A stretch of DNA of 64,000 bases from Gordius sp. MW1 (Eukaryota > Nematomorpha > Gordioida > Gordea > Gordiidae). The notes under the pieces were generated by a model. That model worked only from the letters and a program-made list of their open reading frames with translations. It did not search any database and was not told the DNA's origin. Both the position numbers and the translations under genes were made by a program. Shown here in pieces: positions 11,861 to 46,890 of this stretch. The stretch is taken from contig OZ038531.1 in the NCBI GenBank assembly GCA_964036665.1, positions 17,112,168 through 17,176,167 of the forward strand, read 5' to 3'. Positions within the stretch are counted from its first letter, which is position 1. Every line of letters begins with the position of its first letter.

Positions 11861-14150
11861 TAATTGCTATGCAATTTATGGGCTCGTTTTTTGGTTGTCC
11901 GTCCGTCCGTCCGTCCAGTGTCCGTCCATCCCTATCTATTTGCATTGGGTATATTAGGTTATCGACTTTTTAAATTAATGCATGAGAAAGAGGTGCCCCA
12001 CCCCTCATCTCTATCTCCCTCGCTTTCGGGCGGGTCGGGTTTTAATTGCTACGTTAAATTAATGCATAAGTATATCTATTCGTTTTTGAATTGGGTAACA
12101 TTGATATTAATTGCTATAATTACCCTATGCCCTCCACTACAAGGGTTTGGGTTAAAATCTCGGAGTTTTTTTAGACTCTTATGATTGTTCTTGTTACTAC
12201 CATTGATAATAAGACTTTTTGGCCGTCTGCTGGCTGCTGACCAATGAAAATAATGACCATTGGCCAAAATGTGAATCCAAGTTTATTTTTTCTTTTTGAC
12301 TATTATGATTGTTCCTGTTACTACCATTGCTAAGACGACTTTTCGGCCGTCCACTGGCTGCTGACCAAAGAAAAAATGACCATTGGCCAAAATGTGAATC
12401 CAAGTTTATTTTTTCGTTTTTTTGACTATTATGACTGTTCCTGTTACTACCATTGCTATTATGACTTTTTGGCCGTCTGCTGGCTGCTGACCAATGAAAA
12501 AAATGACCATTGGCCAAAATGTGAATCCAAGTTCATTTTTTCGTTTTTTTTGATTATTACGATTGTTCCTGTTACTACCATTGCTATTATGACTTTTTGG
12601 CCGTCTGCTGGCTGCTGACCAATGAAAATAATGACCATTGGCCAAAATGTGAATCCAAGTTTATTTTTTCTTTTTCTTTTTGACTATTATGATTGTTCCT
12701 GTTACTACCATTGCTAATACGACTTTTCGGCCGTCCACTGGCTGCTGACCAAAGAAAAAATGACCATTGGCCAAAATGTGAATCCAAGTTTATTTTTTCG
12801 TTTTTTTTGACTATTATGATTGTTCCTGTTACTACCATTGCTATTATGACTTTTTGGCCGTCTGCTGACCAATGAAAAAAATGACCATTGGCCAAAATGT
12901 GAATCCAAGTTTATTTTTTCGTTTTTTTTTATTATTATGATTGTTCCTGTTACTACCATTGCTATTATGACTTTTTGGCCGTCCGCTGGCTGCTGACCGA
13001 TGGAAAAAATGACCATTGGCCAAAATGTGATTCCAAGTTTTTTTTTCGTTTTAGTTTTGACTATTACGATTGTTCTTGTTACTATCATTGATAATAAGAC
13101 TTTTTAGCCGTCCGCTGGCTGCTGACCAATGAAAAAAATGACCATTGGCCAAAATGTGAATCCGAGTTTATTTTTTCGTTTATTTTTGACTATTATGATT
13201 ATTCCTGTTACTACCATTGCTATTATGACTTTTTGGCCGTCCGCTGGCTCCTGACCGATGGAAAAAATGACCATTGGCCAAAATGTGAATCCGAGTTTTT
13301 TTTTCGTTTTTTTTTTTGACTATTATGATTGTTTCTGTTACTACCATTGCTATTATGACTTTTTGGCCGTCCGCTGGCTCCTGACCAATGGAATAAAATG
13401 ACCATTGGCCAAAATGTGATTCGAAAATTTTTTTTTCCTTTTTTTTTACTATTATGAATTTATATCCACTTTTACCGTGTCCTGGCTGCTGACCAATGGA
13501 ATAAAATGACCATTGGCCAAAATGTGATTCGAAAATTTTTTTTTCGTTTTTTTTACTCTTAAGAATTTATATCCATTTTTACCGTGTGCTGGCTGCTGAC
13601 CGATGGAAAAAAATGACCATTGGCCAAAGTGAGCATCAAATTTTTTTTCCGTTTTTTTGGCTATCATTGACTTATAGAGTATCTGTTGGTACTGAACAAT
13701 GGAGAAAAAATGACCATTCGCCAAATTTTTGATTTTTTTAATTAAAAATTGTTCAAATTCAACAAAAATTTCTCCCAACAATTCTGCAAATTCTTAACAT
13801 TGTGATGTTTTATAATATAATGTTTGTTAGACCCATAATCACTAAAGGCCGTAAAAACTAATGTAATACGCAACTAGATGCAAACACTAAATCTAACCCT
13901 AACCCTTGCCTATATTACATTTTGCCTATATTACATTTTGCCTATAAATGGAAAATTTGTATAAATAATTAATTAATCATTAGGCATTTAATACCCCCCT
14001 ATAGGCATTCTCGCCCCTTCCCACCTTTCTCGCCCATAAATTGCATAGCAAATATGATACATTTATACGAAGTAAAGATGAGTCGTCCCCCCTTCCCTTC
14101 TCCCCTCCCCTTCTCTTCTCCCCCTTCCAACGAGGGCCGAAGGCCCGAGT
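11861..14150 (+). mobile_element. HINE (Helentron-associated)-like element, copy A
   Basis: The 5' end carries the subterminal repeat TTGCTATGCAATTTATGGGC followed by a (GTCC)n tract. The centre (about 12180-13720) is a tandem array. The 3' part carries the exact inverse of the subterminal repeat at 14032-14051. The element ends in a hairpin GGGCC-GAA-GGCCC plus GAGT at about 14134-14150, and is flanked by T-runs. These are the features known for Helentron-associated elements such as DINE-1: subterminal inverted repeat, internal tandem repeats, 3' stem-loop and insertion between T residues. No Rep/helicase is encoded. The assignment is by structure only. Confidence 0.65.
12180..13720 (+). repeat. 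~125-bp minisatellite array, main block
   Basis: About a dozen monomers spaced roughly 119 to 131 bp apart, judged from the recurring GACCATTGGCC. Each has TTGGCCGTCCGCTGGCTGC, GACCAATGG-A/T-rich-CCATTGGCC and a T-rich spacer. CCAATGG and CCATTGG can pair as a 7-bp stem. The last monomers (13440-13720) diverge to a TTTATATCCA-type variant. Long stop-free frames across the array are by-products of the repeat. Confidence 0.92.
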
Positions 14151-14155
14151 TTTAT

Positions 14156-14881
14156 TAATTGCTATGCAATTTATGGGCTCGTTTTTAGTTGTCCGTCCGT
14201 CGTCCGTCCGTCGTCCGTCCACCAAGTTATTGGCGCCAGCCTTTTTTAAATTAAATTAATATATTGTTCTTGTTAATACCATTGATAATATGATTTTTTG
14301 ACCGTCCGCAGGCTACTGACCATTGAAAAAAATTACCATTGGCCAAAATGTGAATCCAAGTTTATTTTTTCGTTTTTTTTTATTATTATGATTGTTCCTG
14401 TTACTACAATTGCTATTATGACTTTTTGGCCGTCCGCTGGCTGATGACCATTGGCCAAAATGTGATTCCAAGTTTTTTTTTCGTTTTAGTTTTGACTATT
14501 ACTATTGTTCTTGTTACTATCATTGATAATAAGACTTTTTGGCCGTCCGCTGGCTGCTGACCAATGAAAAAAATGACCATTGGCCAAAATGTGAATCCGA
14601 GTTTATTTTTTCGTTTATTTTTGACTATTATGATTATTCCTGTTACTACCATTGCTATTATTACTTTTTGGCCGTCCGCTGGCTCCTGACCGATGGAAAA
14701 ATTGACCATTGGCGAAAATATGAATCGAAATTGTTTTTTTCGTTTTTTTTGACTATTATGATTGTTCCTGTTCCTACCATTGCTATTATGACTTTTTGGC
14801 CGTCCGCTGGCTCCCTTCTCCTTTCCCCTTCTCCCCTCCCCTTCTCTTCTCCCCCTTCCCACGAGGGCCGAAGGCCCGAGT
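14156..14881 (+). mobile_element. HINE-like element, copy B (short)
   Basis: It begins with the subterminal repeat and a GTCC-rich tract directly after copy A. It contains about four minisatellite monomers (14260-14815) and ends with the same GGGCC-GAA-GGCCC-GAG hairpin at 14864-14881. The internal 3' subterminal repeat is missing, so it is a deletion derivative. Head-to-tail packing with copy A suggests tandem insertion or rolling-circle concatemers. Confidence 0.6.
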
Positions 14882-14885
14882 TTTA

Positions 14886-17340
14886 TTAATTGCTATGCAA
14901 TTTATGGGCTCGTTTTTGGTTGTCCGTCCGTCGTCCGTCCGTCGTCCGTCCACCAAGTTATTGGCGCCAGCCTTTTTAAATTAAATTAATATATTGTTCT
15001 TGTTAATACCATTGATAATATGACTTTTTGACCGTCCGCAGGCTATTGACCATTGAAAAAAATTACCATTGGTCAAATAAATCGAAATTTTTTGTTCGTT
15101 TTTGAATAGGTTCACATTGATAATTACCCTATGCCCTCCACTACAAGGGCCTATGCCTCTACTGATATGGGTCCCTGTTAATTAAATTAATATTTTGTTC
15201 TTGTTAATACCATTGATAATATGACTTTTTGACCGTCCGCAGGCTACTGACCATTGAAAAAAATTACCATTGTCCAAATAAATCGAAATTTTTTGTTCGT
15301 TTTCGAATAGGTTAACATTGATAATTACCCTATGCCCTCCACTACAAGGGCCTATGCCTCTACTGATGTGGGTCCCTGTGCTCCTACAAAAGTTTTAATT
15401 GCTATGCAATTTATGGGCTCACTTTCCATTTTCCGAATGTCTTGTCACGCGCCGAATGTCTTGCACTGAATGTCTTGTCACGCTTTTTTTAACAGTATAG
15501 ATATCTATTATTAATTTAACTAGTTTTTAGGTTCAAATCCCGGTTAATAAACCAGTTTTTGGGTTCGAAACCCGGGTTTTTTTTAACTATTATGATTGTT
15601 CCTGTTATTACCAATGCTATTATAACTTTCTAGCCTTCCGCTGGCTACTGACCGATGAAAAAATGACCATTGGCCAAAATGGGAATCGGAATTATTTTTT
15701 TCGTTTTTTTTGACTAATATGATTGTTCCTGTTACTACCAATGCTATTATAACTTTTTGGCCGTCCGCTGGCTCCTGACCGATGGAAAAAATGACCATTG
15801 GCCAAAATGTGAATCGAAATTATTTTTTTCGTTTTTTTTTGACTATGCCATCAGTGGCCGAGCGTTGCGCGCGATAAGCGCGTTTCTTGGCAGCTTCGCC
15901 GGTGTCACCGGCAGCCGAGAGGCGTGCCCGATAAGCGCGTTGTTTGGCAGCGCCGGCGTTCTCGCCATCCACCAAGTTATTGGCGCCAGCTTTGTGACCT
16001 GGATATCCCGGGTTCAAGCCAGGGTTTAAATTAAATTAATATTTTGTTCTTGTTAATACCATTGATAATATGAATTTTTGACCATCCGCTGGCTACTGAC
16101 CAATGAAAAAAATGACCATTGGCCAAATAAAGCGAAATTTTTAATTGCTATATGCAATTTATGGTATTTTTTCGTCTTTGAATAGGTTAACATTAATAAT
16201 TACCCTATGCCCTTTCCTACAAGGGCCTACGCCTCTACTGATATGGGTCCCTGTGCCCCTTACCAAAGCCTATGCCTTTACTGATATGGGTCCCTGTGCC
16301 CCTTACCAAACCCTATGCCTTTACTAATGTGGGTTCGAATCCCGGAGAGGGCAAAATTTTTATTTATTTTTTAAATTAAATTAATATATTGTTCTTGTTA
16401 ATACCATTGATAATGTGACCTTTTGGCCGTCCGCTGGCTACTGACCAATGAAAAAAATGACCATTGGCCAAAGTATAAATCGAAATTTTATTTTCGTTTT
16501 TGAATTGGTTAACATTGATAATTACCCTATGCCCTCCCCTACAAGGGTCTATGTTTCATTATGGGCTCACTTTCCATTTTCCGATGTCTTGTCACGCTAC
16601 CGAATGTCTTGCACCGAATCTATATATTGTCACGCTCTTCGGTGTCTTGCACCGAATGTCTTGTCACGCACCGAATGTCTTCTCACGCTGTTTACTTTTA
16701 ATTAATTTAACTAGTTTGTGGGTTCGAATCCCGGAGTTTTTTTTGACTCTTATGATTGTTCTTGTTACTACCATTGATAATAAGACTTTTTGGCCGTCCG
16801 CTGGCTGCTGACCAATGGAAAAAATGACCAATGGCCAAAATGTGTATCGAAATTATTTTTTTCGTTTTTTTTTGACTATTATGATTGTTCCTGTTACTAC
16901 CATTGCTATTGTGACTTTTTGGCCGTCTGTTGGCTGCTGACCAATGGAAAAAAATGACCATTGGCCAAAATGTGATTCGAAAATTTATTTTTTATTTTTT
17001 TTGACTATCTGAATTTATATCCACTTTTACTGTGTCCTGGCTGCTGACCAATGGAAAAAAATGATTATTGGCCAAAATGTGATTCGAAAATTTTTTTTTC
17101 GTTTTTTTTACTCTTATGAATTTATATCCATTTTTACCGTGTGCTGGCTGCTGACCGATGGAAAAAAATGACCATTGGCCAAAGTGAGCATCAAATTTTT
17201 TTTCCGTTTTTTTTGACTCTTATGATTGTTCCTGTTAATTTAATACCATTGATAATATGACTTTTTGGCCGTCCGCTGGCTGCTGACCAATGGAAAAAAA
17301 TGACCATTGGCCAAAGTGAGCATCAAAAATTTTTATTTAT
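14886..17340 (+). mobile_element. Mosaic of HINE-like fragments
   Basis: 5'-end motifs (GCTATGCAATTTATGG) recur at 14893 and 15399 and a shorter one at 16144. Minisatellite blocks lie at 14990-15090, 15190-15290, 15580-15840, 16040-16130, 16385-16500 and 16730-17330. Between them are ~50-bp tandem segments around CTACTGATATGGGTCCCTGT (15150-15380 and 16195-16340) and several GGTTCGAATCCCGG-like motifs. No terminal 3' hairpin was seen. This looks like repeated insertion and recombination within one family. Confidence 0.6.
15820..16017 (-). other. GC-rich insert with a 65-codon basic repeat ORF
   Basis: About 180 bp of GC-rich DNA (15843-16020) interrupts the AT-rich minisatellite. On the minus strand it is open and encodes two near-copies of A-A-K-K/Q-R-A-Y-R-A separated by S-A-A-G-D-T-G-E. 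That is a basic, helix-prone repeat. The base composition is unlike every neighbour, suggesting a captured fragment of another TE gene. The protein family is not recognised. Confidence 0.4.
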
Positions 17341-18221
17341 AGGATTAAACTAATATGAAAAATAAATTTTATATATTGAAATGGAGCACGAATTTTATCA
17401 CTATCAAGTGGTTAAATAAATAAATGGGCCTGAATAAAAATTCGCGATTATTTGTCTGGAGATGATATAAAAATATTAAGAGATAAAATTTTATCAAGTG
17501 GTCACAAATAAATAAACATTAAATATTGGTTTAAGTAGTTTAGAGTTTATGTTTAACTAGCTGACCCGGCAAACTTTTCTAAATTTTTTTTTAAATGTTA
17601 AAATGCTTTTATTAGGTAAAATGGATACATGAAATATGTATCATTTATTTTATAAATAATAAATTAATAGTATTTATTGTAAATAATATGATTGCTACAA
17701 ATTGGTCCCATTAAATATTTTATGATTGTGTAAGAAATTTAATTAATTGCCTTTACTTTTCTCTAAATTTCTTAATCTTTTTATTTGAATATTTAACTTT
17801 TATGTTTATTTTTCCTCATGATTTTTAAAAGTTCTCATTTACGGAAATTTTCCTGTGCATTTTGATATCTTTTAACTTTTAAATTTAGATTTCAACATGT
17901 TTATTTTTCCTCATGATGAGAAAAAATTTTAACGGAAATATTTGTTTAAAAATAGATATAAATGATTGTACTTCCATTTGATATTCTTTTATATGTATCA
18001 TTTTTTTTATAACAACCCAATAATAGGTTATGTTGTCGTAACCTTGATAAAAACAACTAATCATAAAGCTTAACAATCCACTCCCTCTCTCCCCCTTTAA
18101 GATAAAATTAATCGATATTTTGCATATAACTGAGGTGTATGTATGTATCGCTCATTATTTCGGGTCGAATTATATGGTAAGCAAGGGAAGGGTTGGCATC
18201 AATTCTCTTAATCGCTATCTC
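17341..18221. other. AT-rich spacer with a known interspersed-repeat start
   Basis: AACTAGCTGACCCGGCAA at 17557-17574 recurs at 63179-63196 and is, to my knowledge, the conserved start of an interspersed repeat found in many invertebrate genomes. The segment TTTATTTTTCCTCATGAT occurs at about 17804 and again at about 17900. No gene was seen. Confidence 0.5.
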
Positions 18222-20129: not shown

Positions 20130-20511
20130 TATGGTAGTTTGTATACCAATAAGAATATTTTACTATAACACAAAGTATTAGTTGTTTATTATTATTATAA
20201 CTCACAAAAGAAGATACAGATCACACAAGAATATTAAGTAAGTAATGATATGAAGATATAGATCACACAAGAATATTAGGTAAGTAATGATATGAAGATA
20301 TAGATCACACAAGAATATTAGGTAAGTAATGATATGAATAGAGTATGCTGGAATAATGCGATTGTAGTAGCGATTTTGGGAAGGAATTGGGATGATGAAT
20401 TTATGTGATTGTGGTAGCGATTTTGGGAGAAAGAAGTAATTCAAAAACTGTAATTGTTAATTGGTTACCTGCTCCTGGTTGCTTCATCTCGCCAATGTTT
20501 AAAACGCCACA
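20130..20511 (-). repeat. 3' LTR of the CsRn1-like element
   Basis: 382 bp, near-identical to 24557-24942. In element orientation it runs from TGTGGCGTTTTAAAC to CTACCATA. It contains three tandem copies of a ~42-bp unit with GATCACACAAGAATATTA (about 20215-20337). These copies generate the repetitive 14-residue frame seen on the minus strand, which is not a gene. Confidence 0.93.
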
Positions 20512-20525
20512 ATACTCCCTTTCCA
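20512..20525 (-). other. Polypurine tract of the CsRn1-like element
   Basis: In element orientation the 14 nt before the 3' LTR read GGAAAGGGAGTAT plus T, a purine-rich plus-strand primer in the expected place. Confidence 0.7.
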
Positions 20526-20569
20526 GATATATTTACGGTTTTAAATATATCGATAAAATTGGCTGAGAA

Positions 20570-21595
20570 TTATGTGCTGTATTCACGAAGGTTTTTCGGC
20601 CAATGGACCTTTCTGCCTTTTCTAGTTATTTTGGTTGGTTTTTCCACTTCTTGTGTCGGTGCCTCAGCTTGAGTTTCGTCGGCGGTCTGAAAGGATGGTT
20701 CCTCTCTGCTTAGATGGCAGGGTTTTAATCTGTCTATCGAGACAGAATCTCTTTTCCCATTTTTATCAAGAACGAAGTACTTTGGTTCACGCTTCAACAC
20801 TTTGAAGGGACCGTCGTACGTTGGAGAGAGTGGCTTCCGCACCGCGTCGTTTCTGATAAAGACGTGGGTTGTTTCGAACAGATCGCTGCTAACTTGCTCT
20901 TTTGATGTCGCATGGTGTTTTGGTATGGGATAAGGGATTTTAGCCATGGCTCTCTTCAGCTTGTCAACGAATTGATGTTGTAATGGATCGTGTTCGGTTT
21001 TCAGGAAAAAGTCTCCTGGTAGTCGTAAACTCGTACCGTAAACCAATTCCGCTGTTGATGCTCCTATGTCTTCTTTCATAGTTGTACGTAAACCTAATAA
21101 TACCAATGGTAAAATTTCGTTCCACTTCGTCTCGCCGGCGGCTTTTAACGACTCTTTAAGTTGTCTGTGGAATCGTTCGACGAGTCCGTTTGCGGCGGGA
21201 TGGTAGGCGGTTGTTTTGATATGTGTGCATCCTAAAAGATTGGAAAGTTCTCGGAAAAGAGATGATTGAAACTGTGGTCCTCTGTCGGTGGTGATCGTAT
21301 GCGGCACGCCAAAATTTGCAATCCAGTGCTCTATCAACTTTTTCGCGATCATCTCCGTGGATGTATCATTCAAAGGAATAGCCATGGGCCATCTCGTGAA
21401 ACGGTCCACTGCCGTTAATAAATGCGTATATCCGTTTGACGGTGGTAGTGGTCCTACCAAGTCGATGTGTATGTGTGCGAAACGGGCGTCGGGTTGAGCA
21501 AAGGTTCCAGGTACCGTAACTGTGTGTCGGTAAACCTTGCTTTGTTGACATCTTATGCAAGTTCTTGCCCATCTAACAACGTCTTTGTTTATTGA
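20570..21595 (-). CDS. pol: Pol, integrase part (separated by a frameshift)
   Basis: The 3' part of pol, in a different frame from the RT part. It encodes the second half of the integrase zinc finger (C-I-R-C), then the catalytic core with Asp in T-A-V-D-R-F, Asp in T-T-D-R-G and Glu in G-L-V-E-R-F. This is the D,D,35E triad that inserts the cDNA. A C-terminal chromodomain-free tail reaches the polypurine tract. An internal ATG at 21460 lies inside the domain, so the real start is upstream. The frame joins the RT ORF through a one-base deletion (or two-base insertion) at about 21596-21597. Everything after that point is otherwise uninterrupted. Confidence 0.9.
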
Positions 21596-23658
21596 AGCCA
21601 GACTACTCGATTTGTAATTAGTTTTAGAGTTGCGCGTATACCTGGGTGTGATATCGCGTGGAAATGATCAAATACATTTCTCCTAAGTGGTTCTGGTATC
21701 ACCGGTCGAGGCTTTGTGGTTGAGAGGTCACACAGGACTTTGCTATCCGATCCGGGAATGGGTATTAGTTGCAACTTTAGGGATGATGAGTTTTTTAGAC
21801 CTTCTAAGGATTCATCAGCCTTCTGATATTTGCTAATTTCCTCCAAATCCGGAATTCCTGGTAATTTAATAGAATCTATTTCCATCCGGGATAGAGCGTC
21901 CGCTACTGTGTTGCTTTCGCCTTTAATGAATCGTATGTCAGTAGTATACTGCGAGATGAGGTCTAACTGTCTTGTTTCTCTTGGAGAATACTGGTCGGGT
22001 TTTGCGTTGAATGCGTGGCTGAGTGGTTTATGGTCGGTATAAATGGTGAAATCACGACCTTCTAAGATATGGCGGAAATGCTTTATGGCCAAATAAATTG
22101 CGAGGAGTTCGCGACCAAAAGTACTGTACCGGGTCTGGGTGGGTTGTAATCTCGATGAGAAAAATGCTAGTGGGTATACCTTGTCCGAAATGGTTTGCTC
22201 CAAAACTGCTCCGACCGCCGTGTCTGATGCATCGGTGGTCAGTGTGATTTTTGTAAGGGGGTCTGTATTCAAAAAGGTAAGTGTGGTAAAATTCACTAAT
22301 GCTGCTTTTGCTTCTTTGAACGCCTTGACCTGAACGTCGTTGCAGGTTACGGACTTTTTGGACTTCTTCAGCAACTCGGTCAGAGGTTGGAGGGTTCGGG
22401 AAATTCCGGGTAGAAATCTCCGATAGAAATTAATCATACCTAGAAATCTCCGGAGCTTCTTTAGTGAATCAGGTAAGGGAAACTCGTTGATGTCCTTGAC
22501 TTTGTCGAGCAGTGGGGCAATACCGGTGCTTGATACCTGGTGTCCGAGAAATTCGAGTTCACCAACTCCGAATTTGCACTTCGCAGGGTTGATTCTCAGA
22601 TCGTACTCTTGCAATCGTTGAAAAACGATTCTCAAGTGCTGTTCGTGTTCCTGCTCCGACGCGCTGGCTATGAGGATATCATCGATGTACGCGTAAACGC
22701 AATCTAATCCTCTTAGGACTTCATCCATGAATCGTTGGAACGTCTGTGCTGCGTTTTTTAGTCCGAACGGCATTCTTGCGAATTCGTACAGGCCGAAAGG
22801 TGTTGTGACGGCTGTTTTGCATACGTCCTTTGGCGCAACGGGGATGTGATGGTACGCTCTCACGAGGTCCAGCTTGGAGAATATGATTTTGTTGTGAAGA
22901 TTGGCAGTGAAATCGTGTATGTGTGGTATAGGATACCTGTCCGGTATTGTGACTTTATTCAGGCCTCTGTAGTCTCCACAAGGCCTCCAATCGCCTGTCT
23001 TTTTGGCGGCTAAATGCAATGGAGCTGCCCAGTTGCTTTCTGATTTCTGAATGATTCCTAACTCTAACATATATTCGAATTCTTTTTTCGCGACATTCAA
23101 CTTTTCCGCCGTTAGTCTTCTTGGACGTGCGTACTGAGCTGGTCCTTTCGTTAATATGTGGTGGAGTACATCATGTGGTGGAATCTGTCGGTTGAAGTTT
23201 AGGGGGGATATGAGTGATGGAAATTCGTGCAGAATTGCATCGAATTTTGTGCCGTGATTGCTGAGTGTAACACGGATACCGAATGTCTGATGTGGTGAAG
23301 TTGTGCCCTTGGATGATAGCTGGGTAGTACTATCTATGAGTCGTTTGTTGTTGATGTCCACAACCAACTTATAGTGATGTAATAAGTCAGCTCCAATTAT
23401 GGGGGTGTGTACGTCTGCGACTAAAAATACCCATTTGAATTCCCGTCGCAAGACAAGGTCTAAACTTAATACGACTTGTCCGTATGTGTGTATGCCGGTT
23501 TGGTTAGCCGCTTGTAGAGTTGGGCCATGCAGGATCAATGGATGTTTGGGAGGGGGTGGGATGACGCTAACTTCAGCGCCTGTGTCGACGAGATATTTCC
23601 GTTGGGTGGACCGGTCGAATAAATAGAATAGGCGGCTGAAAGTACGGCCGTTTCCCAT
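21589..23658 (-). CDS. pol: Pol: protease, reverse transcriptase, RNase H
   Basis: About 689 codons from the first Met. Aspartic protease at residues ~20-110 with active site D-T-G-A at 25-28. Reverse transcriptase ~190-380 with the catalytic Y-I-D-D at ~324. RNase H ~465-590 with T-T-D-A-S-D at ~473. The frame then enters the integrase zinc finger and hits a stop at 21589 because of an indel. The true start is probably not this Met: the frame is open upstream to the gag stop and is reached by -1 frameshifting (see 23685-23691). The product copies element RNA into DNA in virus-like particles. Confidence 0.92.
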
Positions 23659-23681
23659 TGTCGCCCATATGGGACGGCCCG

Positions 23682-24539
23682 TCAGTTTTTTTGTTGGGAG
23701 TTGGTGTTAAAATTGCATGGCTGCATGCACTTCCTGGCTTCCTTTCCAAATTTATAATGGTACCAACATGTGTCAGTTGGGCGTTGTCTGGATGATGACC
23801 TAGATCTGCTTGACCTTCTCCATGTCGTCCTACTGTCGTTGGGGTTGCCTGTTAATTGATTCACTCTGAGTTCTAATTGTGACACAACTTTAATCAGTTC
23901 CTGCATTTCGTTTGTTTGAGTATTGGGAATAGGAATATTGGGAATCAGAATATTGGGAGTAGGGTTATTTGGAGTGAGGTTATAGGGAGTAGCTACTGAT
24001 GCTAAGCTGCTGACTCTGAACGTTTCGTGAATCCTATCGGCGACTTCTGCTATACGATCCAGTGATTGGTCATCTCCCATAGTAGCCAAGATGCTTACCA
24101 CATGTTGGGGTAGCTTATCCATCCAGAGGCTTTTTAAAATCTTTTCGTCCATCACATTATTACCTAAACGAGATTTTAAGTATCTTACCAATTGGGATGG
24201 GGTGCGGTCTCCTAGGAATATCGAAGAGAATAAATTCCTTATCCTTTTTTCATCACTGTCTCCTAGTCTTTTTACGATTGCTTCCTTCAGTTTGTCGTAA
24301 GGGGTAATTTCAGGAACCGTGAATATGAGGTCTGCCACCTCTTCCGCGACTTCTGGGGGTAGTGATTCAACTAGGTAGGAATATTTAGTCTTCTGCGAGG
24401 ATATGTTGCGTGTGTGAAACACGGCTTCTACCTGTGACAACCATATGCGAATATTTTTAGAATGGAATTCAGGAATTCTCACATGAACTGCGCTTTCTCT
24501 TGGTTCATTAGAGTCTGGAATTGTTGTGTTTAATTCCAT
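23682..24539 (-). CDS. gag: Gag polyprotein of the CsRn1-like element
   Basis: 285 aa. A capsid-like region (about 20-190) resembles retrotransposon Gag domains, with W-L-S-Q-V-E-A-V-F near residue 33. A proline/asparagine-rich linker follows. A zinc finger near the C-terminus has the pattern C-x3-H-x9-C-x3-C, the CHCC type characteristic of CsRn1-clade Gag rather than the usual CCHC. Gag packages element RNA into particles. The start ATG (24539-24537) lies one base after the primer-binding site, so there is almost no leader. The stop lies directly after a slippery heptamer. Confidence 0.9.
23685..23691 (-). promoter_or_regulatory. -1 ribosomal frameshift site between gag and pol
   Basis: In element orientation the bases are A-AAA-AAC in gag frame, immediately followed by the gag stop codon TGA. 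This is a canonical X-XXY-YYZ slippery heptamer. Slipping back one base opens the frame that continues into the protease without interruption. Confidence 0.75.
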
Positions 24540-24540
24540 T

Positions 24541-24555
24541 ACGTCGGGGTCACCA
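24541..24555 (-). other. Primer-binding site matching tRNA-Trp
   Basis: In element orientation TGGTGACCCCGACGT begins two bases after the 5' LTR. It is complementary to the 3' end of animal tRNA-Trp including CCA, from knowledge of that tRNA. This is the primer used by CsRn1-type elements. Confidence 0.88.
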
Positions 24556-24556
24556 A

Positions 24557-24942
24557 TATGGTAGTTTGTATACCAACCAATAAGAATATTTTACTATAAC
24601 ACAAAGTATTAGTTGTTTATTATTATTATAACTCACAAAAGAAGATACAGATCACACAAGAATATTAAGTAAGTAATGATATGAAGATATAGATCACACA
24701 AGAATATTAGGTAAGTAATGATATGAAGATATAGATCACACAAGAATATTAGGTAAGTAATGATATGAATAGAGTATGCTGGAATAATGCGATTGTGGTA
24801 GCGATTTTGGGAAGGAATTGGGATGATGAATTTATGTGATTGTGGTAGCGATTTTGGGAGAAGGAAGTAATTCAAAAACTGTAATTGTCAATTGGTTACC
24901 TGCTCCTGGTTGCTTCATCTCGCCAATGTTTAAAACGCCACA
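24557..24942 (-). repeat. 5' LTR of the CsRn1-like element
   Basis: 386 bp. Differs from the 3' LTR by a 4-bp CCAA duplication and about three substitutions. It holds the same three ~42-bp internal repeats. In element orientation the LTR starts at 24942. Confidence 0.93.
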
Positions 24943-25424: not shown

Positions 25425-25776
25425 TAATTCAATTGGTTAACATCGATAATTACTCTATGCCCTCCCCTACAAAGGCCTATACCTCTACTTATATGGTTCC
25501 CTGTGCCCCTACAAAGGCTACCTCTACTGATGTAGGTCCGGAGAGGGCAATTTTTTTTAATTACATGGAAAATTTGTATAAATAATTAATTAATCATTAG
25601 GCATTTAAAACCCCCTATAGACATTCTCGCCCCTTCCTACCTTTCTCGCCCATAAATTGCATAGCAAATATGATACATTTATACGGAGTATAGATGAGTC
25701 GTCCCCCCTTCCCTTCCCCCCTTCCCTTCATCCGCATCCCCCCTCCCCCTTCCCACGAGGGCCGAAGGCCCGAGTT
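25425..25776 (+). mobile_element. HINE-like 3' end fragment
   Basis: Contains the CTACTGATGTAGGTCC block, the AATTAATTAATCATTAGGC segment, the 3' subterminal repeat GCCCATAAATTGCATAGCAA (about 25648-25667), a C/T-rich stretch and the terminal GGGCC-GAA-GGCCC-GAG hairpin at 25759-25775. The 5' part is absent. Confidence 0.7.
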
Positions 25777-26821: not shown

Positions 26822-29760
26822 CGCTTCTTCTTCTTCTTTCTATGACTGTTTGTCACCTAGGCTGGTGGTCAGTCCTTTCAGCATTCGTTTACATTTGTTT
26901 CTATGTTTACATAGATCTTTCTTTATCTTGTGGACTTTCATATCGTGCCGTATTTTATGAATCCAGGTAAGCTTGGGTCTTCCTCTCCTTCGTTTTCCTG
27001 CGAAATATATTATCTTGATTTTCTTTCCGACGTAGTTTTCGTCCCTTCTTTCAATATGGCCATACCATCTTAGTCTATATGTTAGGAGCTTTTCGTAATA
27101 GGTGTAGTACCTAAAATTCTTCTTATTTCTTCATTTCGCCTATGTTCCTTTTTGCTTACTCCTCGCACCCATCTTAGCGTTCTCATCTCCATGGTCGCAA
27201 GACGCTGCTCTTCTCTTTTACGTATAGCTTATGATTCAGAGCTATACAGGACTGTGTTGTATGATGGATTTATACAGTGCGCCTCTCGGAATGTTTTTGT
27301 CACACAGAACGCCTGTCAAGTCCCTCCACTTAAGCCATCCGGAATTTATCCTTGCTTGGATTTCTTTATCCATTCCACCATCCGATTGAAGTGTTGATCC
27401 TAGATATTTGAAGGAATCCACGCTTATAAGTTGCTAGTCGCCTAAAGTAAGGGATGCACTTGGCTGGTTTTCATCCGATTTAAACTTTGTCTTCATGTAT
27501 TCTGTTTTCTTCCGATTTACCTTGAGACCACTTTCTTCTATTGCATTTACCCATCTATTTACAGTATTAGCCAATTCTTGTTCACTTTAGGCACAGAGGA
27601 TTATATCGTCTGCAAAGATCATTGCCCAAGGAGTTTGCTCGCCCAAATCCTTAATAATATCCATAATCATTATGAATAGGAAGGGACTAAGAGCTGAACC
27701 TTGATGGACTCCAGTGTTAATGGCAAAGCCCTTTATAGTCCCCACCGTTGTTCTAACATACGTTCTATTTCCCTTGTACATATCTTTTATTGCTCTGACG
27801 TATAATTCTGGCACATTGTTTGCTTTAAGACTTTTCCACACTAAAGCACTAGGAACTTTATCGAACGCTTTTTCTAGATCGATGAAACACATGGCAAATC
27901 CTCCTCCCTTTCTTTTAACCGTTCCATTAATCTTCTAATACTGTTTAGAGCGTCTGCTGTGGACCTCTCCGGCATGAATCCGAATTGGTTATCTCGAATT
28001 TGAACTAAACTGCGAAGCCGTTTTTTGATCACTTTTTCCCACACCTTGAAAGTGTGACTCATAAGCTTTATCCCTCTGTAATTGTTGCAATCCTGAATGT
28101 CCCCTTTCATCTTGTATATCGGGATCATGTAGCTATCCCTCCACGTTAGGCATTATACCCGTTTTAAGTTATTGTTGAAAAGGGTCGCGAGGAATTGTGC
28201 ACCAGTATTGCCTAACGTTTTAAAACCCTCTATTGGTATATTGTCTGGTCCAAGAGCTTTTTCCGACTTTAGTTTACCCATAGCAACTTTGACGTTTCCG
28301 TGATCCAGTCCGCTGTGTTTAATTCTCCTATATTTTCCTGGTTAATGTCTTCGACTACAGGCCCCTTTTCAAATGATAAATTGCTATAATAGTCGTACCA
28401 TCTTTGTAGTATATGGCTGTCGTGTGTTAGTATTTCTCCCTTTTGACCCTTGATTACCCGGCATTCTAGGTAATCTTTAGAATTTCTGGCCCTTGACTTT
28501 GCGATTTTGTAGATCAATTTTTCTCCTTCCTTTGAGTTTAGTTTTACATTTATATAGTCGTACACCTTGCTTTTGCTACGAATTTAGCCGATCTTTTAGC
28601 TACTTGTTAAGCTTGCTTATCATTACTATCCTTGCTTTTATACCAAACTTTGTACAATCTTTTCATTTCCTTGATACATTTTTGCACTTCTTCATTTCAC
28701 CCCCACGTCTCCTTGAGAATTCTTTTAGTGAGCTTGTTTTCACCTAGTATTTGTCGTCCCGCTTTTCGCATTGTGGTAGCTATACCATTCCATTGATCCT
28801 CACATGAAGTATTTTACTTAAATTCAGCATGTTTAATTACTTTTGGATATTATCCTTAAGTTTCCTCCATTGTATAGTAGCCGCTACTCTTTGTACCTTT
28901 TGCCCTTTAATATAAAGTCCATCACCAACAGCTTGTGTTGGCAGGTCAATATTTCCCTCGGTATTACCTCAACATTTTGAACATACTTTAAATGCGCTCT
29001 GTTGACTTGAAAGAAATCTATCTGAGTGGTACGGCTGCCGCTTTTGTACGTTATAAGATGTTCCTGTCTCTTTTTGAAAGAATTTTCGTACCTCCTTTAT
29101 TTCTTAGGCCGTAACCCCGACCACCGTGATTTCTTTCAAATCCTTCCCTTGATTTGCCCACGTGTCCATTGAGGTCCGCTCCGATAATTATTAGTCCCTC
29201 TTTACCGAATTGGGATAGAACATCTTCAAGCTCCTTCCAAAAACGCTCTTTTTCCGCCTCAGAGCATCCACTTTAAGGGGCGTATGCTGATATAACGTTA
29301 TCGTAGTAGATTTATAACAAAGCTGTATAGCCATAATTCTTTCTGTCATAGATTCTTTTAACGTCGACGACAGTTTGCTGAAATTCTTCCGTTAGCACAT
29401 TACCGACGCCATTCCGATGAGTTTCTGTAACGTAAAAATATAATTTGTATCCGTCATCTATGTATTTTGCTTTTTGGCCCTTCCATTTGGTCTCTTGTAT
29501 ACAAGCGATATCGATTTTTCTCCTCCTTAGAACGTCTGCCAATTCTCCGCTCTTGCTAGTCATTGTACCAATATTCCACGACCCAAACTTTATCCTACGC
29601 TAACTAATGTCTTTAACCGCTTCCGTTTGTTGAGAGAGCGGTAGCCTTCGTTTATTTCTAACACATTCCAGGCGAAGAATGCGCGCGTCGCTTAAGGGGG
29701 ACGCCCTAAGGTTTTCATGCTGCTTCTTTGTTATAGTATACATTTTGGTTTATATGGAAA
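26822..29760 (-). mobile_element. RTE-like non-LTR retrotransposon, near full length but decayed
   Basis: On the minus strand: an APE-type endonuclease (29570-28900) with I-A-C-I-Q-E-T-K-W, a linker (28565-28270), and the reverse transcriptase (28128-27400) with N-N-Y-R-G-I, I-D-L-E-K-A-F, H-Q-G-S-A-L-S-P-F and the catalytic F-A-D-D at about 27605. A C-terminal region with F-K-Y-L-G-S follows (about 27385). The 3' end has an (AAG)n tail at 26825-26838, typical of RTE elements. Frameshifts and stops split it into at least five frames. Clade assignment is from motif style and is less certain than the LINE call. Confidence 0.85.
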
Positions 29761-40100: not shown

Positions 40101-40659
40101 TACAGGAAAAAGTTTAAGCTAAATATTCTCTTATACTTGGTTAGATGGTTTGGAAAACGAGACTGAAGAGAAGCCCAAACACAAGGTATATCATTTGCCT
40201 TCCCAAATAAATTTGCCATATAGATTGCTTTGACTATCATCACCAATAAATTAATATGTTATAAAAATTTATTTTTTTTTGCCTTTTAAAAAAAGAAAAA
40301 ACGTTCGGTCGAAAAGGGAGTTATGAGGGCAGAAAACGCTTTACTCAAACCGAAATCGGCTACGCAAAGTCAAACGCCGATGGATGAGGGGAAAGAGGAG
40401 AAAAAGCTGAGGGAAATGATGATCACGAAAAAATATAAGAGACTATACGGCAAAATTCGTCGGTCCGAACAGCTCAAGAAAAAAGAGGTATTTTCAATTT
40501 TATTAGTGTTTTTAATTTTGTGCCTTACTACATATATTTCTAAATAATTTTTAATGGTTATAACCCAATTGTAACATTTTTTACATGTTCCTTTTTAAGG
40601 TATCGACGTTGAAGGCTAAACGTGCCAGGTACGAAGCAAAAAAGGGAGAATCGAAATAA
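34137..40659 (+). CDS. PES1: Pescadillo ribosome biogenesis factor (16 exons)
   Basis: Exons: 34137-34157, 34198-34277, 34397-34556, 35581-35690, 35737-35864, 35942-35985, 36069-36158, 36350-36466, 37210-37368, 37744-37886, 38174-38299, 38917-39128, 39632-39721, 40145-40185, 40296-40487, 40600-40659. They total 1773 nt, 590 aa (human 588). All introns are GT-AG and the phases join exactly. Pescadillo works in the nucleolus in the PeBoW complex with BOP1 and WDR12, needed for processing 27S/32S pre-rRNA and making the 60S subunit. N-terminal Pescadillo domain (~5-285) with [12 protein letters not shown] and [13 protein letters not shown] domain ~330-415 with G-E-V-S-W-D and the conserved Trp in Q-P-Q-W-V-Y-D. 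Then H-L-S-P-F-V and a lysine-rich tail with [11 protein letters not shown]. The acidic linker is shorter than in vertebrates. The start gives M-G-K-E-K-K-K, typical of the family. Confidence 0.96.
34723..35343. mobile_element. piggyBac-like MITE in PES1 intron 3
   Basis: Flanked by TTAA on both sides (34723-34726 and 35340-35343), the piggyBac target duplication. Terminal inverted repeats are CCCTCAAGAGTAT and ATACTCTCGAGGG, with one mismatch. Subterminal GTGGGGTA motifs recur several times in both orientations (34773, 35132, 35303, and inverted at 35319). There is no transposase. It lies 166 bp after exon 3. Confidence 0.85.
37004..37169. mobile_element. MITE of the CATGGGCGTAGCC family in PES1 intron 8
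   Basis: Ends CATGGGTGTAGTCAG and CTGGCTACGCCCATG. It shares the GGGGGCAATAATGATTTAGGG block. It ends 40 bp before exon 9. Confidence 0.87.
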
Positions 40660-40717
40660 TTTAGAGAATATACGTTGAAATTTGGAAATTTGAATCAATG
40701 CGATTTACAGTGTTCTC

Positions 40718-40723
40718 AATAAA
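40718..40723 (+). terminator. Polyadenylation signal of PES1
   Basis: AATAAA lies 59 nt after the PES1 stop codon, a normal short 3' UTR position. Confidence 0.65.
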
Positions 40724-40889
40724 AAGATTATTTGCTTGTGTATGCTACTTTTAAAATTTTGTATTTGTAAATGCTTAAAATTGGGAGGGGGAGGGGGTTA
40801 ATTTTACCATTTCTTACATTTTGGCTTTTAAACACCTATACTAAGCATATTCTTGCGCTAAAACAACATTGGGGGGGGGGCATAAACCT

Positions 40890-41465
40890 TCTCGGATATG
40901 CACAAACGAGAGGCAAAAGCCTCTCCTTATATAAACTATGGGAGGAGACAGAAAGAGTATTTGAAGAAACTGTTTGGAAAACGGTATAGTTAGGGAGTAA
41001 TGTCAGACAATTTGGAGTACCCAAAAGTAGAGAGAGTTTTAAATACCTCGCCCCGATGCGGCAATAAGAGGGACGTTGAGCCAAGAAATATTATGCAGGG
41101 CTTCATACTTAAGGTGTAATGTGGGACAAGAATATGCCAATCTAATTGAAATCAACTCTCACGTGTTTTGTACGTGGTGTTGTTAGGCATTAAGTGGTAA
41201 GGAATTTAAGTAATATGTAGAACTTCGCAGCAAAAGTGGATTTTTAAGTGATGGCTGACATGATAAATTAAAATCGTCTGGAACACACCAAGAAGGAGTG
41301 TGAGTTATAAAAATAAAAAGTTTTGGACATCAAGTTGCATAGAAGAGAGGAAGAGGACGGCCGTGTATTACGCGGGAAGGGCAAGTTGACAAAGGAAATA
41401 AAATGATCCAGACTTGAGCGTTACTCGAACAAGAATGAAAAAAGTGATCAAGTAAGACTGCAAAT
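40890..41465 (+). pseudogene. RTE-like LINE 3' fragment (decayed)
   Basis: Broken frames resemble the region after the RT core through to the C-terminus, with a K-Y-L-type segment near 41040 and R-E-E-E-D-G-R-like sequence near 41350. It shares its end with 30120-30310. There are many stops. It ends at the HINE-like copy D. Confidence 0.55.
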
Positions 41466-41879
41466 GCTCCAATCTATAGAGCGAAATGTTTATAAAAACT
41501 CGGGCCTTCGGCCCTCGTGGGAAGGGGGGACGACTCATCTTTACTTCGTATTAATGTATCATATTTGCTATGCAATTTATGGGCGAGAAAGGTGGGAAGG
41601 GGCGAGAATGCCTATAGGGGGGTATTAAATGCCTAATGATTAATTAATTATTTATACAAATTTTCCATTATAGGCAAAATGTAATATAGGCAAGGGTTAG
41701 GGTTAGATTTAGTGTTTGCATCTAGTTGCGTATTACATTAGTTTTTATGGCCTTTAGTGATTATGGGTCTAACAAACATTATATTATAAAACAACACAAT
41801 GTTAAGAATTTGCAGAATTGTTGGGAGAAATTTTTTGTTGAATTTGAACAATTTTTAATTAAAAAAATCAAAAATTTGG

Positions 41880-43850
41880 CCAATGGTCACTTTTTCTCCA
41901 TTGGTCAGTACCAACAGATACTCTATAAGTCAATGATAGCCAAAAAAACGGGAAAAAAAATTTGATGCTCACTTTGGCCAATGGTCATTTTTTTTCCATC
42001 GGTCAGCAGCCAGCACACGGTAAAAATGGATATAAATTCATAAGAGTAAAAAAAACGAAAAAAAAATTTTCGAATCACATTTTGGCCAATAGTCATTTTA
42101 TTCCATTGGTCAGCAGCCAGGACACGGTAAAAGTGGATATAAATTCATAATAGTCAAAAAAAACGGAAAAAAAATTTTCGAATCACATTTTGGCCAATGG
42201 TCATTTTATTCCATTGGTCAGCAGCCAGCGGACGGCCAAAAAGTCATAATAGCAATGGTAGGAACAGGAACAATCAAAATAGTCAAAAAAAAACGAAAAA
42301 AATAATTTCGATTCACATTTTGGCCAATGGTCATTTTTTCCATCGGTCAGGAGCCAGCGGACGGCCAAAAAGTCATAATAGCAATGGTAGTAACAGGAAT
42401 AATCATAATAGTCAAAAATAAACGAAAAAATAAACTCGGATTCACATTTTGGCCAATGGTCATTTTTTTCATTGGTCAGCAGCCAGCGGACGGCCAAAAA
42501 GTCTTATTATCAATGATAGTAACAAGAATCGTAATAGTCAAAACTAGAGATGCACCGATACCAAGTATCGCCATGGTATCGGCGCCGATACCTTGCCAAA
42601 AGAATCGGCCCGATACTTTGCTAGTATCGGCAATTACCAAGCCGATACCTTTTTCAATATGAAACTCAAAAAATAATATTTATAGTATCTCCTACCATTA
42701 AAAAATAGAGGACTTTTTAAATTTTTTGAAAATTGTTTCATTTGATTGGCTATAAATATTTCTATGTGGAGTATAATAAACTCATTGACCATCTGTTCCG
42801 AATAACTGCGCTTTTAAGTAAATATTGTTTTATTTTAAAAATTATTATATATTAAGCCTTAGATGGATTTTTTTTATACACTATGGAGTTATTTTGTTGT
42901 GTCAGCAGATGAAAAATTTGTAATCTGTGAATTGTGCAAAGCTAAAATAAGTCGTGGGGGCAAAAACAAACATTATTTACTTTTTTATAAAATAAATTTA
43001 TGTATTAATAAAATATAAAGTGTACCATAATAAAATTTAAATTTCTTTTTTGATCTATTAATCACAATACTTTTGAATTAATTAGTAACAAAATTTATTA
43101 TTATAAATTAATATTATATTATAAATTATAATTACAATTGTTTTATCGTCAAAATTCTGATCTATCAAAATTTGGATGTGACTTAATTTATAATATTTAA
43201 TTTGCATATATTTTTTAGTATAAAAATTTTTTTTATTATAAGTATCGGCATGGTATCGGTATCGGCAAAAAAATCTTAAGTATCGGCTGGTATCGGTATC
43301 GGCATAAAATAGTGGTATCGGTGCATCTCTAGTCAAAACTAAAACGAAAAAAAAAACTTGGAATCACATTTTGGCCAATGGTCATTTTTTCCATCGGTCA
43401 GCAGCCAGCGGACGGCCAAAAAGTCATAATAGCAATGGTAGTAATAGGAACAATCATAATAATCAAAAAAAAACGAAAAAATAAACTTGGATTCACATTT
43501 TGGCCAATGGTCATTTTTTTCATTGGTCAGCAGCCAGCAGACGGCCAAAAAGTCATAATAGCAATGGTAGTAACAGGAACAATCATAATAGTCAAAAAAA
43601 ACGAAAAAATAAACTTGGATTCACATTTTGGCCAATGGTCATTTTTTCTTTGGTCAGCAGCCAGTGGACGGCCGAAAAGTCGTATTAGCAATGGTAGTAA
43701 CAGGAACAATCATAATAGTCAAAAAAAAAAAAAAAAAAAAACTTGGATTCACATTTTGGCCAATGGTCATTTTTATTGGTCAGCAGACGGCCAAAAAGTC
43801 TTATTATCAATGGTAGTAACAAGAACAATCATAAGAGTCTAAAAAAACTC
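41880..43850 (-). repeat. ~125-bp minisatellite array in HINE copy D
   Basis: Reverse-complement version of the monomers at 12180-13720, including the same terminal TTTATATCCA-type variants (41995-42170). A frame of 154 codons (43378-43842) and others are shadows of the repeat. Confidence 0.9.
42545..43331. mobile_element. hAT MITE nested in the minisatellite
   Basis: Terminal inverted repeats TAGAGATGCACCGATAC and its complement, with 8-bp target duplication GTCAAAAC (42537-42544 and 43332-43339). The subterminal regions are packed with GGTATCGG words. The interior is AT-rich and non-coding. The empty site matches other monomers such as that at 13050. Confidence 0.92.
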
Positions 43851-44284
43851 CGAGATTCTAGCATAGGGTAATTATAGCAATTAGTATCAATGTTACCCAA
43901 TTCAAAAACGAATAGATATACTTATGCATTAATTTAACGTAGCAATTAAAACCCGACCCCGCCCGAAAGCGAGGGAGATAGAGATGAGGGGTGGGGCACC
44001 TCTTAATTTAAAAAATAACACAGCGAGGGAGATAGAGATGAGGGGTGGGGCACCTCTTTCTCATGCATTAATTTAAAAAATCGATAACCTAATATACCCA
44101 ATGCAAATAGATAGGGATGAACGGACGGACGGACGGACGGACAACCAAAAAACGAGCCCATAAATTGCATAGCAATTAAGACTACTCTGTATCAACCATA
44201 ATTATTAACACTTGGTCAAAATCTTTGCGAAGTCAGCTATTGCTTACATCATACATAAAATTTAATAAATATTTAAGCAAAAGA

Positions 44285-46890
44285 AAAATAGAAGTTTTAG
44301 TAATATAGTTATGTTTTGCAAATATTTATAAAACTTAGCTTTTAATTGCTATGCAATTTATGGGCTCGTTTTTTGGTTGTCCGTCCGTTGTCCGTCCGTC
44401 CGTTGTCTGTTATCCGTTACCCTCCCTATCTATTTGCATTGGGTATATTAGGTTATCGATTTTTTAAATTAATGCATGAGAAAGAGGTGCCCCACCCCTC
44501 ATCTCTATCTCCCTCGCTGTGTTATTTTTTAAATTAATGCATAAGAGGTGCCCCACCCCTCATCTCTATCTCCCTCGGTGTGTTATATATAAGATTTGTT
44601 AAATTATCTATTATATAATAAACATAGATAAAAGTTGTTTACTTTTAATGCTATGCAATTTAACTAGTTATATAATAAACATAAATAAAAGTTGTTTACT
44701 TTTTAATTGCTATGCAATTTAACTAGTTTTGGGGTTAGAATCCCGAAGTTTTTTTGACTCTTATGATTGTTCTTGTTACTATCATTGATAATAAGAATTT
44801 TTGGCCGTCCGCTGGCTGCTGACCAATGAAAAAAATGACCATTGGCCAAAATGTGAATCGAAATTATTTTTTCCGTTTTTTTTGACTATTATGATTGTTC
44901 CTGTTTCTACCATTGCTATTATGACTTTTTGGCCGTCCGCTGGCTGCTGACCAATGTTATATAATAAACATAAATAAAAGGTGTTTACTTTTAATTGCTA
45001 TGCAATTTAACTAGTTTTTGGGTTAGAATCCCGGGTTTTTTTGACTCTTATGATTGTTCTTGTTACTATCATTGATAATAAGACTTTTTGGCCGTCCGTT
45101 GGCTGCTGACCACTGAAAAAAATGACCATTGGCCAAAATGTGAATCCGAGTTTATTTTTTCGTCTTTTTTGACTATTATGATTGTTCCTGTTACTACCAT
45201 TGCTATTATGACTTTTTGGCCGTCCGCTGGCTCCTGACCGATGGAAAAAATGACCATTGGCCAAAATGTGAATCGAAAATATTTTTTTCGTTTTTTTTTG
45301 ACTATTATGATTGTTCCTGTTCCTACCATTGCTATTATTACTTTTTGGCCGTCCGCTGGCTGCTGACCAATGGAATAAAATGACCATTGGCCAAAATGTG
45401 ATTCGAAAACTTTTTTTTCGTTTTTTTTGACTATTATGAATTTATATCCACTTTTACCGTGTCCTGGCTGCTGACCAATGGAAAAAAATGACCATTGGCC
45501 AAAATGTGATTCGAAAATTTTTTTTTCGTTTTTTTTACTCTTATGAATTTATATCCATTTTTACCGTGTGCTGGCTGCTGACCGATGGAAAAAAAATGAC
45601 CATTGGCCAAAGTGAGCATCAAATTTTTTTTCCCGTTTTTTTGGCTATCATTGACTTATAGAGTATCTGTTGGTACTGACCAATAGAGAAAAAGTGACCA
45701 TTGGCCAAATTTTTGATTTTTTTAATTAAAAATTGTTCAAATTCAACAAAACATTTCTCCCAACAATTCTGCAAATTCTTAACATTGTGTTGTTTTATAA
45801 TATAATGTTTGTTAGACCCATAATCAATAAAAACTAATGTAATACGCAACTAGATGCAAACACTAAATCTAACCCTAACCCTTGCCTATATTACATTTTG
45901 CCTATATCATTTTGCCTATAATGGAAAATTTGTATAAATAATTAATTAATCATTAGGCATTTAATACCCCCCTATAGGCACTCTCGCCCCTTCCCACCTT
46001 TCTCGCCCATAAATTGCATAGCAAATATGATACATTTATACGAAGTACAGATGAGTCGTCCCCCCTTCCCTTCCCCTCTTCCCTTCCCTTCTCCCCCTTC
46101 CCACGAGGGCCGAAGGCCCGAGTATTTTAATTAATCATTTATCTTCACAAAGTATGTATTTTTACCTTAATACACAAATTAATCGATTAAGAAATCTACA
46201 TCTACCTATTTTCGTAGATTTTTATTATCGAGGAAAATTTACTGTAGAATATTTATATCCCATGATTTTTTTTTAAATTTTGATAACAACCCTTGTAGAT
46301 TAGAAACTTGTCCAAAATCCAATCAACTTGACATAGTGTCCACCATCACCAAATATTATTTCGAATCGATATCAAAAAAACTCAAGCTGTACAATCTTAG
46401 ATCTTCCATGCACGCGGCCACCCTTCTTTTTTAAAATTCTTGAGAATATTCGCATTTTTATAACATGCTACGCATTTGCTTCCATACATGCTTATGTCTA
46501 GGCCCACACTGATCTAACGTTATCCGATAATCAATAACATTCACTTGTTACTACGATAGGTTTAAAACAAATAAATAGTAGGATAATTTCTTGGCTATAA
46601 CATAAACACAGTACAAAATCTTTCCAACTTTAAAGCCTAAACTAGTTGTAAACCTTTTCTAAACATATTACACCTGACTTAATAACGTATTAAGTAAATC
46701 CAAACCTTTACATTTTTATCGTTTAAATAGTGAAAATTATATTTGTTGGAAATTATCAATTAATTTGTGTATTAAGTTAAAAATACATACTTTGTGAAGA
46801 TAAATGATTTAAATTAAAAAAGCTAAGTTTTATAAATATTTGCAAAACATAACCATATTGCTATTATATTTACAAAAATAGGTCTTTTTC
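44285..46890. repeat. Foldback-like inverted repeat split by HINE copy E
   Basis: The left arm (about 44285-44340 continued at 46126-46190) is the reverse complement of the right arm (about 46750-46880). Shared words include ATGTTTTGCAAATATTTATA and ATCTTCACAAAGTATGTATT. The spacer 46200-46745 is unique AT-rich sequence. In the right arm the two halves are contiguous, so it preserves the empty site of HINE copy E. Confidence 0.75.
44343..46123 (+). mobile_element. HINE-like element, copy E
   Basis: Starts with AATTGCTATGCAATTTATGG, a GTCC-type tract and a duplicated GGTGCCCCACCCCTCATC segment. The minisatellite blocks are at 44750-44960 and 45040-45720. The 3' subterminal repeat is at about 46003-46022 and the final hairpin GGGCC-GAA-GGCCC-GAGT ends at 46123. 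Three extra partial 5' ends (GCTATGCAATTTAACTAG at about 44650, 44710 and 44998) lie inside. Confidence 0.68.

Follow-up and report, generated by a model that had tools for sequence, protein, structure and literature searches.

Minisatellite-bearing elements of Gordius sp. MW1 are very probably non-autonomous members of the Helentron family

Which kind of transposable element gave rise to the three complete, non-coding copies of one element (copies 1 to 3, Table 1) found in a 64,000-nucleotide stretch of the genome of Gordius sp. MW1 (Nematomorpha; assembly GCA_964036665.1, contig OZ038531.1, positions 17,112,168 to 17,176,167 of the forward strand)? This whole stretch is hereafter called the window. 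A sequence-only reading had placed the copies among the Helentron-associated elements of the DINE-1 type, and this placement fits the sharp ends, the Ts on either flank, an empty site, and relatives encoding a Rep-helicase and an endonuclease. The copies are very probably non-autonomous members (HINEs) of the Helentron family; the kind is known, and this family is a new member of it. Contigs are labelled C and loci of the genome L, each with a number. Comparisons with known elements draw on parts of three papers (PMC4067079, PMC2374699 and PMC7492417).

The copies share the layout that had been read from the sequence. The 20-mer TTGCTATGCAATTTATGGGC starts 3 nt inside the 5' end of all three and is itself palindromic (AATTGC..GCAATT stem, 3 nt from the end at 11861), while its exact inverse (20/20 bases in the three copies) lies 98, 66, and 98 bp before the 3' end in copies 1, 2, and 3, respectively. 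This surpasses the criterion of at least 11 bp of identity given for HINE subterminal repeats in the relevant part of PMC4067079. The 3' hairpin GGGCC-GAA-GGCCC, with its 5-bp stem and GAA loop, is found 3 nt before the 3' end in each copy. Within the window, we counted 10 exact and 2 near matches to the 20-mer (0.01 expected from shuffles), and 5 exact and 2 near matches to the hairpin, these last two being both strands of one place (0.19 expected). Pairwise identity of the copies reaches 95.4-95.7% over the best common stretch of ~1.0-1.1 kb. Copy 2 is lengthened by a 787-bp insert (42545-43331) with matching ends TAGAGATGCACCGATA and an 8-bp duplication GTCAAAAC, which, from its ends, we take to be hAT-like. 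The 20-mer and its inverse resemble the inverted repeats of a miniature inverted-repeat transposable element (MITE), a derivative of a cut-and-paste DDE transposon whose termini are inverted repeats and whose insertion duplicates the target. Nevertheless, these repeats are not terminal, the 3' one being 66-98 bp inside the element, and such an origin is highly improbable in the light of this and of the empty site and coding relatives described below.

The central part of the copies is a tandem array, read beforehand as a hairpin minisatellite of ~125 bp. The array is there, with a period of 129 bp shifting to ~107-108 bp toward the 3' side, but a strong hairpin found no support: folding of one typed unit as DNA is modestly better than shuffles (z = -1.98, 8 of 200 shuffles equally good), indicating modest stability. 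Among the open reading frames (ORFs) listed, those of 110 aa or more within the copies were judged by eye to be array translations, and the one ORF tested, at 14416-14892 in a short neighbouring unit, has no Pfam match, consistent with the lack of coding region noted earlier. The GTCC tract of the leader had been thought specific to this family. It is general to the kind, because the consulted parts of the literature describe a GTCY microsatellite in Drosophila DINE-1 (PMC2374699) and a GTCY/GTCC/GTCK microsatellite in the oyster Cg_HINE (PMC7492417). The sequences of the array and of the hairpin, on the other hand, are family-specific as proposed, which is usual for such elements.

Alignment of copies from the whole genome, which the sequence-only reading had called for, yielded sharp ends. 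Similarity stops immediately outside TTAATTGC.. on the 5' side and ..GGCCCGAG on the 3' side, the flanks diverging at once, and the same ends are carried by units ranging from 726 to 4344 bp. A test of T-T insertion sites had also been proposed. Position -4 before the 5' end is a T in 21 of 21 distinct contexts, with position -3 being variable (A 14, T 4, G 2, C 1). The first base after the 3' end is a T in 37 of 37 distinct contexts; since 29 of these came from loci L039-L068, retrieved by a pattern already containing that T, the unbiased count is 8/8 (two of them being tandem junctions of the window). The share of T after the 3' end is 68% in the first ten bases, compared with 35% further out.

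A paralogous empty site was found for copy 3. When the flanks of this copy are joined, they align continuously with another part of the window (103 of 112 columns identical). The occupied site reads AGCTTT before and TATTTTAATT after the element, and the empty one AGCTTTTTTAATTT, so that the insertion lies in a run of Ts, with no duplication beyond Ts. In a genome-wide search with the empty region (best 40 of 233 candidates scored), three near-full-length paralogues on C5 (89-90%) were uninterrupted across the insertion point, and among the 40 matches listed, query included, the sole non-crossing one was the right flank of the occupied copy. Eleven joined-flank queries were used, including two spurious pairings across neighbouring copies; copy 3 alone gave matches outside the family, any further spanning match was either a self match or a tandem junction, and no empty site was obtained for L072, a HINE beside an RPA gene. 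This lack of duplication argues against a MITE, and no terminal inverted repeats with target duplication, the pattern named beforehand as refuting, were seen in the checks of ends and empty sites. The ends bear on another possibility, namely a dispersed satellite that multiplied its arrays through recombination or circles, the ends being mere hitchhikers. The large tandem arrays of 129-bp and 107-bp units and the head-to-tail blocks would suit it, but sharp ends with divergent flanks, the empty site, and identical ends on units of such different lengths make it hardly credible.

The 3' hairpin and the absence of target duplication would also fit non-autonomous elements of canonical Helitrons. 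The genome is rich in these: a Pfam search for Helitron_like_N gave at least 150 matches (best 150 of 714 candidates scored), of which the 30 best loci were retrieved. However, the family ends are TTAATTG..GAG with T-T insertion, instead of the TC and CTRR ends and A-T insertion that define canonical Helitrons in the part of PMC4067079 used here, and neither the 20-mer nor the hairpin (up to 2 mismatches) occurs within ~1.5 kb of any of the 30 Rep loci, a distance beyond which Helitron ends may lie. A canonical Helitron origin is, on these grounds, very unlikely. Canonical Helitrons recognizable by their RGLPH motif are plentiful in the genome (L009-L038), and 2 of the 30 loci have open frames of more than 1000 aa.

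Another search, for the RPA family (36 matches, 40/40 candidates scored), led to a Helentron lineage distinct from the RGLPH Helitrons. A copy on C2 (L074+L071) combines DUF6570, Helitron_like_N, a PIF1 helicase, and an RPA OB domain. Its Rep, split across two frames, is the one copy in which the Rep motif YFKRIEFQHRGSPHAH was read; it gives RGSPHAH and carries both Helentron signatures described in PMC4067079 (in the part consulted), RGSPH and F/Y-x-R before motif 2. Its endonuclease part aligns at 98.5% with a copy on C3 (an alignment, not a domain scan). In the 953-aa open frame of L076, the C3 copy (L077+L076+L078) combines PIF1 (231-421, E 2.1e-27) with Exo_endo_phos (712-925), the latter at E 6.5e-6, slightly over the cut-off. 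A search with the Rep-helicase piece of C2 (67 matches, best 54 of 220 candidates scored) found matches 98% identical to the query on C8 and C6, in stop-free frames of 1767 aa (C8) and 1580 aa (C6). Between them, the Helentrons of this genome thus show, in their predicted proteins, an RGSPHAH Rep, a PIF1 helicase, a fused endonuclease, and RPA. Relatives behind the same 5' end that encode a Rep-helicase and an endonuclease are a further point against a MITE, although no dedicated search for DDE genes between the family ends was made.

Two peculiarities of these coding loci were noticed in passing. C2 contains at ~7813648-7822899 (L074+L071 10149-19400) a near-perfect 9-kb palindrome (~99%), to which the downstream half of the C2 copy belongs. 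It includes the RPA of the Helentron as well as a frame of 220 aa that matches no Pfam family, and is either a recent inverted duplication or an assembly effect. In its 5' coding region, the C8 Helentron (L083) carries several tandem copies of a short exon-like piece (MSTDTPEDVEARLARRREL..), as read by eye.

The coding and non-coding elements are linked by their 5' portions. The C8 Helentron begins at ~C8:4097162 (- strand) with TTTTTAATTGCTATGCAATTTATGGGC, an exact 20/20 match to the 20-mer, followed by a leader with GGGCTCACTTTCC and then by the family minisatellite; the same GGGCTCACTTTCC leader type is also present within the window at 15399. The window arrays are 78-88% identical to the C8 array (four best stretches listed per copy). 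C8 and C3 are collinear, at 98.1% over 3,600 columns, from inside the array via the junction to the coding start, while the sequences outside their 5' ends do not match each other, which suggests that array and genes moved together as a single unit. Of the autonomous relatives with the same ends that had been looked for, the 5' side is seen, with an identical 5' 20-mer and a related minisatellite, while the 3' end of the coding element was not found. Some long HINEs of 4.0-4.3 kb carry an RPA piece, and 16 genome matches (profile positions 24/25 to 59/60) of this shape were listed. Three were examined, two having both family ends and the third a 3' end, an array, and a partial 5' motif. The RPA piece of L070 and the RPA-bearing locus L072 share 83% identity over 268 columns. 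Host RPA was considered as the source of this piece and rejected, since it gave no DNA match in L070 (E up to 1e-3); the host peptide is identical at 19/31 positions, compared with 24-26/35 for Helentron-type RPAs, a difference that is small when taken alone.

Several observations weigh against assigning the copies to these Helentrons. Of the 30 best Rep loci, 29 carry the canonical Helitron motif RGLPH, and one is without a motif match. The Rep motif and the endonuclease were read in copies other than that of C8, whose sequence was covered outside C8:4083101-4091899, the part with most of its genes. Where coding copies carry the exact end, their leader is of the GGGCTCACTTTCC type, whereas the three window copies have the GTCC leader. 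Neither the inverse 20-mer nor the hairpin is present in the 3.8 kb downstream of the C8 RPA, where + strand copies of TTGCTATGCAATTTATGCC are found instead. At the C3 locus, an inverse 20-mer and a hairpin do lie downstream, but this 3' end may belong to a nested HINE, because a second 5' end stands in front of them after the RPA. No family 20-mer precedes the C2 array in the piece examined, its sole 5' motif being a 19/20 variant behind the array. At the insertion sites, the excess of T before the 5' end is weak (40%, compared with 33% further out), and one empty site, that of copy 3, is resolved at base level.

The family is widespread, as the many partial ends in the window had suggested. 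The genome searched comprises 211.8 Mb in 12 contigs and contains 11,677 exact 20-mers (5,879 + 5,798 on the two strands) and 3,673 exact hairpin ends of 19 bases (1,801 + 1,872), the reversed 20-mer and reversed hairpin-end patterns, used as controls, giving 0 matches. Roughly estimated from ~11,700 exact 20-mers (two per complete element) or ~4,000 exact 3' ends, with units of ~1.3-2.3 kb, the family may account for ~2-6% of the genome; it is among the more abundant repeats seen in this analysis. Searching IMG/VR with a 21-mer of the family gave no match. Two matches to GTDB contigs, from one Saprospiraceae genome, lie inside the apparent start of a bacterial gene and were judged to be chance, and a literature search by the inner 12-mers listed four papers, all unrelated by title.

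A second 3' end, ..GTTACGCCC-GAA-GGGCGTA, occurs 316 times in exact form (150 + 166). Its hairpin, ACGCCC-GAA-GGGCGT, has the GAA loop on another stem, and the last 60 bp align poorly with those of the first type (28/71 columns). In three full stacks (L078, L080, L082), the type-2 end is preceded by six tandem hairpins, YTGGGGGC-NNN-GCCCCCAR; such G-rich stacks before the terminal hairpin were seen in L080-L082 and at L078 3488-3640. Of 21 units, 20 have C-G or T-A as their outer pair and one has a broken pair, in a hand count that took each unit once, identical contexts once, and perfect-inner-stem units only, at least one imperfect unit (L007) being left out. The apparent covariation rests on few independent changes.

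Head-to-tail units accompany both types of end. Exact type-1 junctions were found in 9 places, two of them in the window. Three type-2 ends were read, in two clusters on C1: that of L082 is joined directly, head to tail, to the next unit, while those of L080 and L081 run into other sequence. The spacings of type-2 ends are 3,408, 3,393, and 3,365 bases in one cluster and 3,308, 3,312, and 1,250 in the other. It is conceivable, though rather unlikely, that the ~six stacked hairpins act as a repeated replication terminator, and that the balance between stopping and running through would yield both the head-to-tail arrays and the minisatellite inherited from the Helentron.

The HINEs themselves would keep only the sequences presumably needed by the enzymes, namely the palindrome-bearing 5' end TTAATTGCTATGCAAT.., the inverse copy of that sequence, and the 3' hairpin, whereas the Rep-helicase-endonuclease and RPA would be supplied in trans by larger Helentrons of the same genome. 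Rep would nick the 5' end of the element, the helicase would then peel off the strand, the 3' hairpin would mark the end of strand transfer, and the strand would be inserted between the Ts of a T-run, with no target duplication. Bypassed termination would produce the head-to-tail units; tandem arrays attributed to it are mentioned for Helitrons in PMC4067079 (in the part consulted). From the sequences, we infer these enzymatic steps, a C8-type relative as the mover of the HINEs, and recent activity.

Close counterparts exist in other animals. The HINEs and Helentrons of Metaseiulus occidentalis, Culex, and Drosophila are defined by these features in the consulted part of PMC4067079 (Thomas et al. 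2014). Their HINEs likewise have palindromic subterminal repeats a few bases from the 5' end with an inverse copy near the 3' end, a 3' palindrome, T-T insertion without target duplication, and, in some copies, tandem repeats, and their Helentron partner has an RGSPH Rep, a PIF1 helicase, a fused AP endonuclease, and RPA. The Gordius family differs in several dimensions from what that part reports: the subterminal repeat is 20 bp instead of 12-15 bp, its 3' copy is set back 66-98 bp from the end, compared with ~38-60 in the mite families (not a classification rule), and the hairpin is 3 nt from the end instead of ~8-35 in the mite. The Gordius RPA pieces fall in several frames, whereas the mite RPA frame is intron-free, and the minisatellite is also present in the coding element, unlike in those families.

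The DINE-1/INE-1/mini-me elements, as far as the consulted part of PMC2374699 describes them, also share subterminal repeats (13 bp, compared with 20 bp in Gordius), a GTCY microsatellite, species-specific central repeats, no significant ORF, T-T insertion, and a 3' stem-loop. The DINE-1 3' stem differs between species there, suggesting compensatory change. In the Pacific oyster, Cg_HINE has similar subterminal repeats (11-12 bp, again compared with 20 bp), the GTCY/GTCC/GTCK microsatellite, satellite-like central arrays, a 3' palindrome, a T-rich target, and wide dispersal; a coding partner sharing the central repeats was found in Gordius, whereas none is described in the results part of PMC7492417.

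The features of the window are collected in Table 1. Beyond the family, the window contains an LTR-type (long terminal repeat) retrotransposon at 20210-24769 (- strand) that encodes rve, RVT_1, RNase H, and a DUF7041 protein. Triple repeats of 42 bp that match each other stand at its two ends, at 20210-20338 and 24641-24769, and may be part of its LTRs. A reverse transcriptase fragment (RVT_1) is found at 27587-27934. By eye, the sequence directly 5' of copy 1 also resembles a reverse transcriptase cut by the insertion.

Table 1. Positions in the window of the element copies, their parts, and related sites.
Feature	Positions	Strand	Basis
Copy 1, complete HINE, GTCC-type leader, type-1 hairpin end	11861..14150	+	20-mer pair and hairpin
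Copy 1, 5' subterminal inverted repeat	11864..11883	+	20-mer match
Copy 1, GTCC tetranucleotide tract in leader	11897..11916	+	sequence; kind known from parts of PMC2374699, PMC7492417
Copy 1, central tandem array, 129-bp then ~107-bp units, palindromic core CCAATGG..CCATTGG-like	12165..13658	+	
Copy 1, 3' subterminal inverted repeat	14032..14051	-	20-mer match
Copy 1, GGGCC-GAA-GGCCC hairpin near 3' end	14134..14146	+	
Complete unit of only 726 bp, joined head to tail to copy 1 and to the following unit, both junctions GGCCCGAGTTTTATTAATTGC	14156..14881	+	
Further partial units, including second leader type (20-mer at 15399, then TCACTTTCC); no hairpin end with up to 2 mismatches	14887..17340	+	
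3' end fragment, inverse 20-mer and hairpin	25648..25771	+	
Copy 2, complete, split by hAT-like insert (presumed)	41498..44178	-	20-mer pair and hairpin
Copy 3, complete, empty site also within window	44343..46123	+	20-mer pair and hairpin
Paralogous empty site for copy 3	46755..46863	-	joined flanks match uninterrupted
Diverged 3' end fragment, one mismatch each in 20-mer and hairpin	62657..62740	+	

For specialists, the interest of this family may lie in the minisatellite inside a coding element and in the stacked-hairpin 3' end. Since the coding Helentron has the same kind of minisatellite, the arrays of the non-coding copies can be read as inherited, and not regrown. The stacked terminal hairpins of one subtype form a natural series in which to study how rolling-circle transposons stop.

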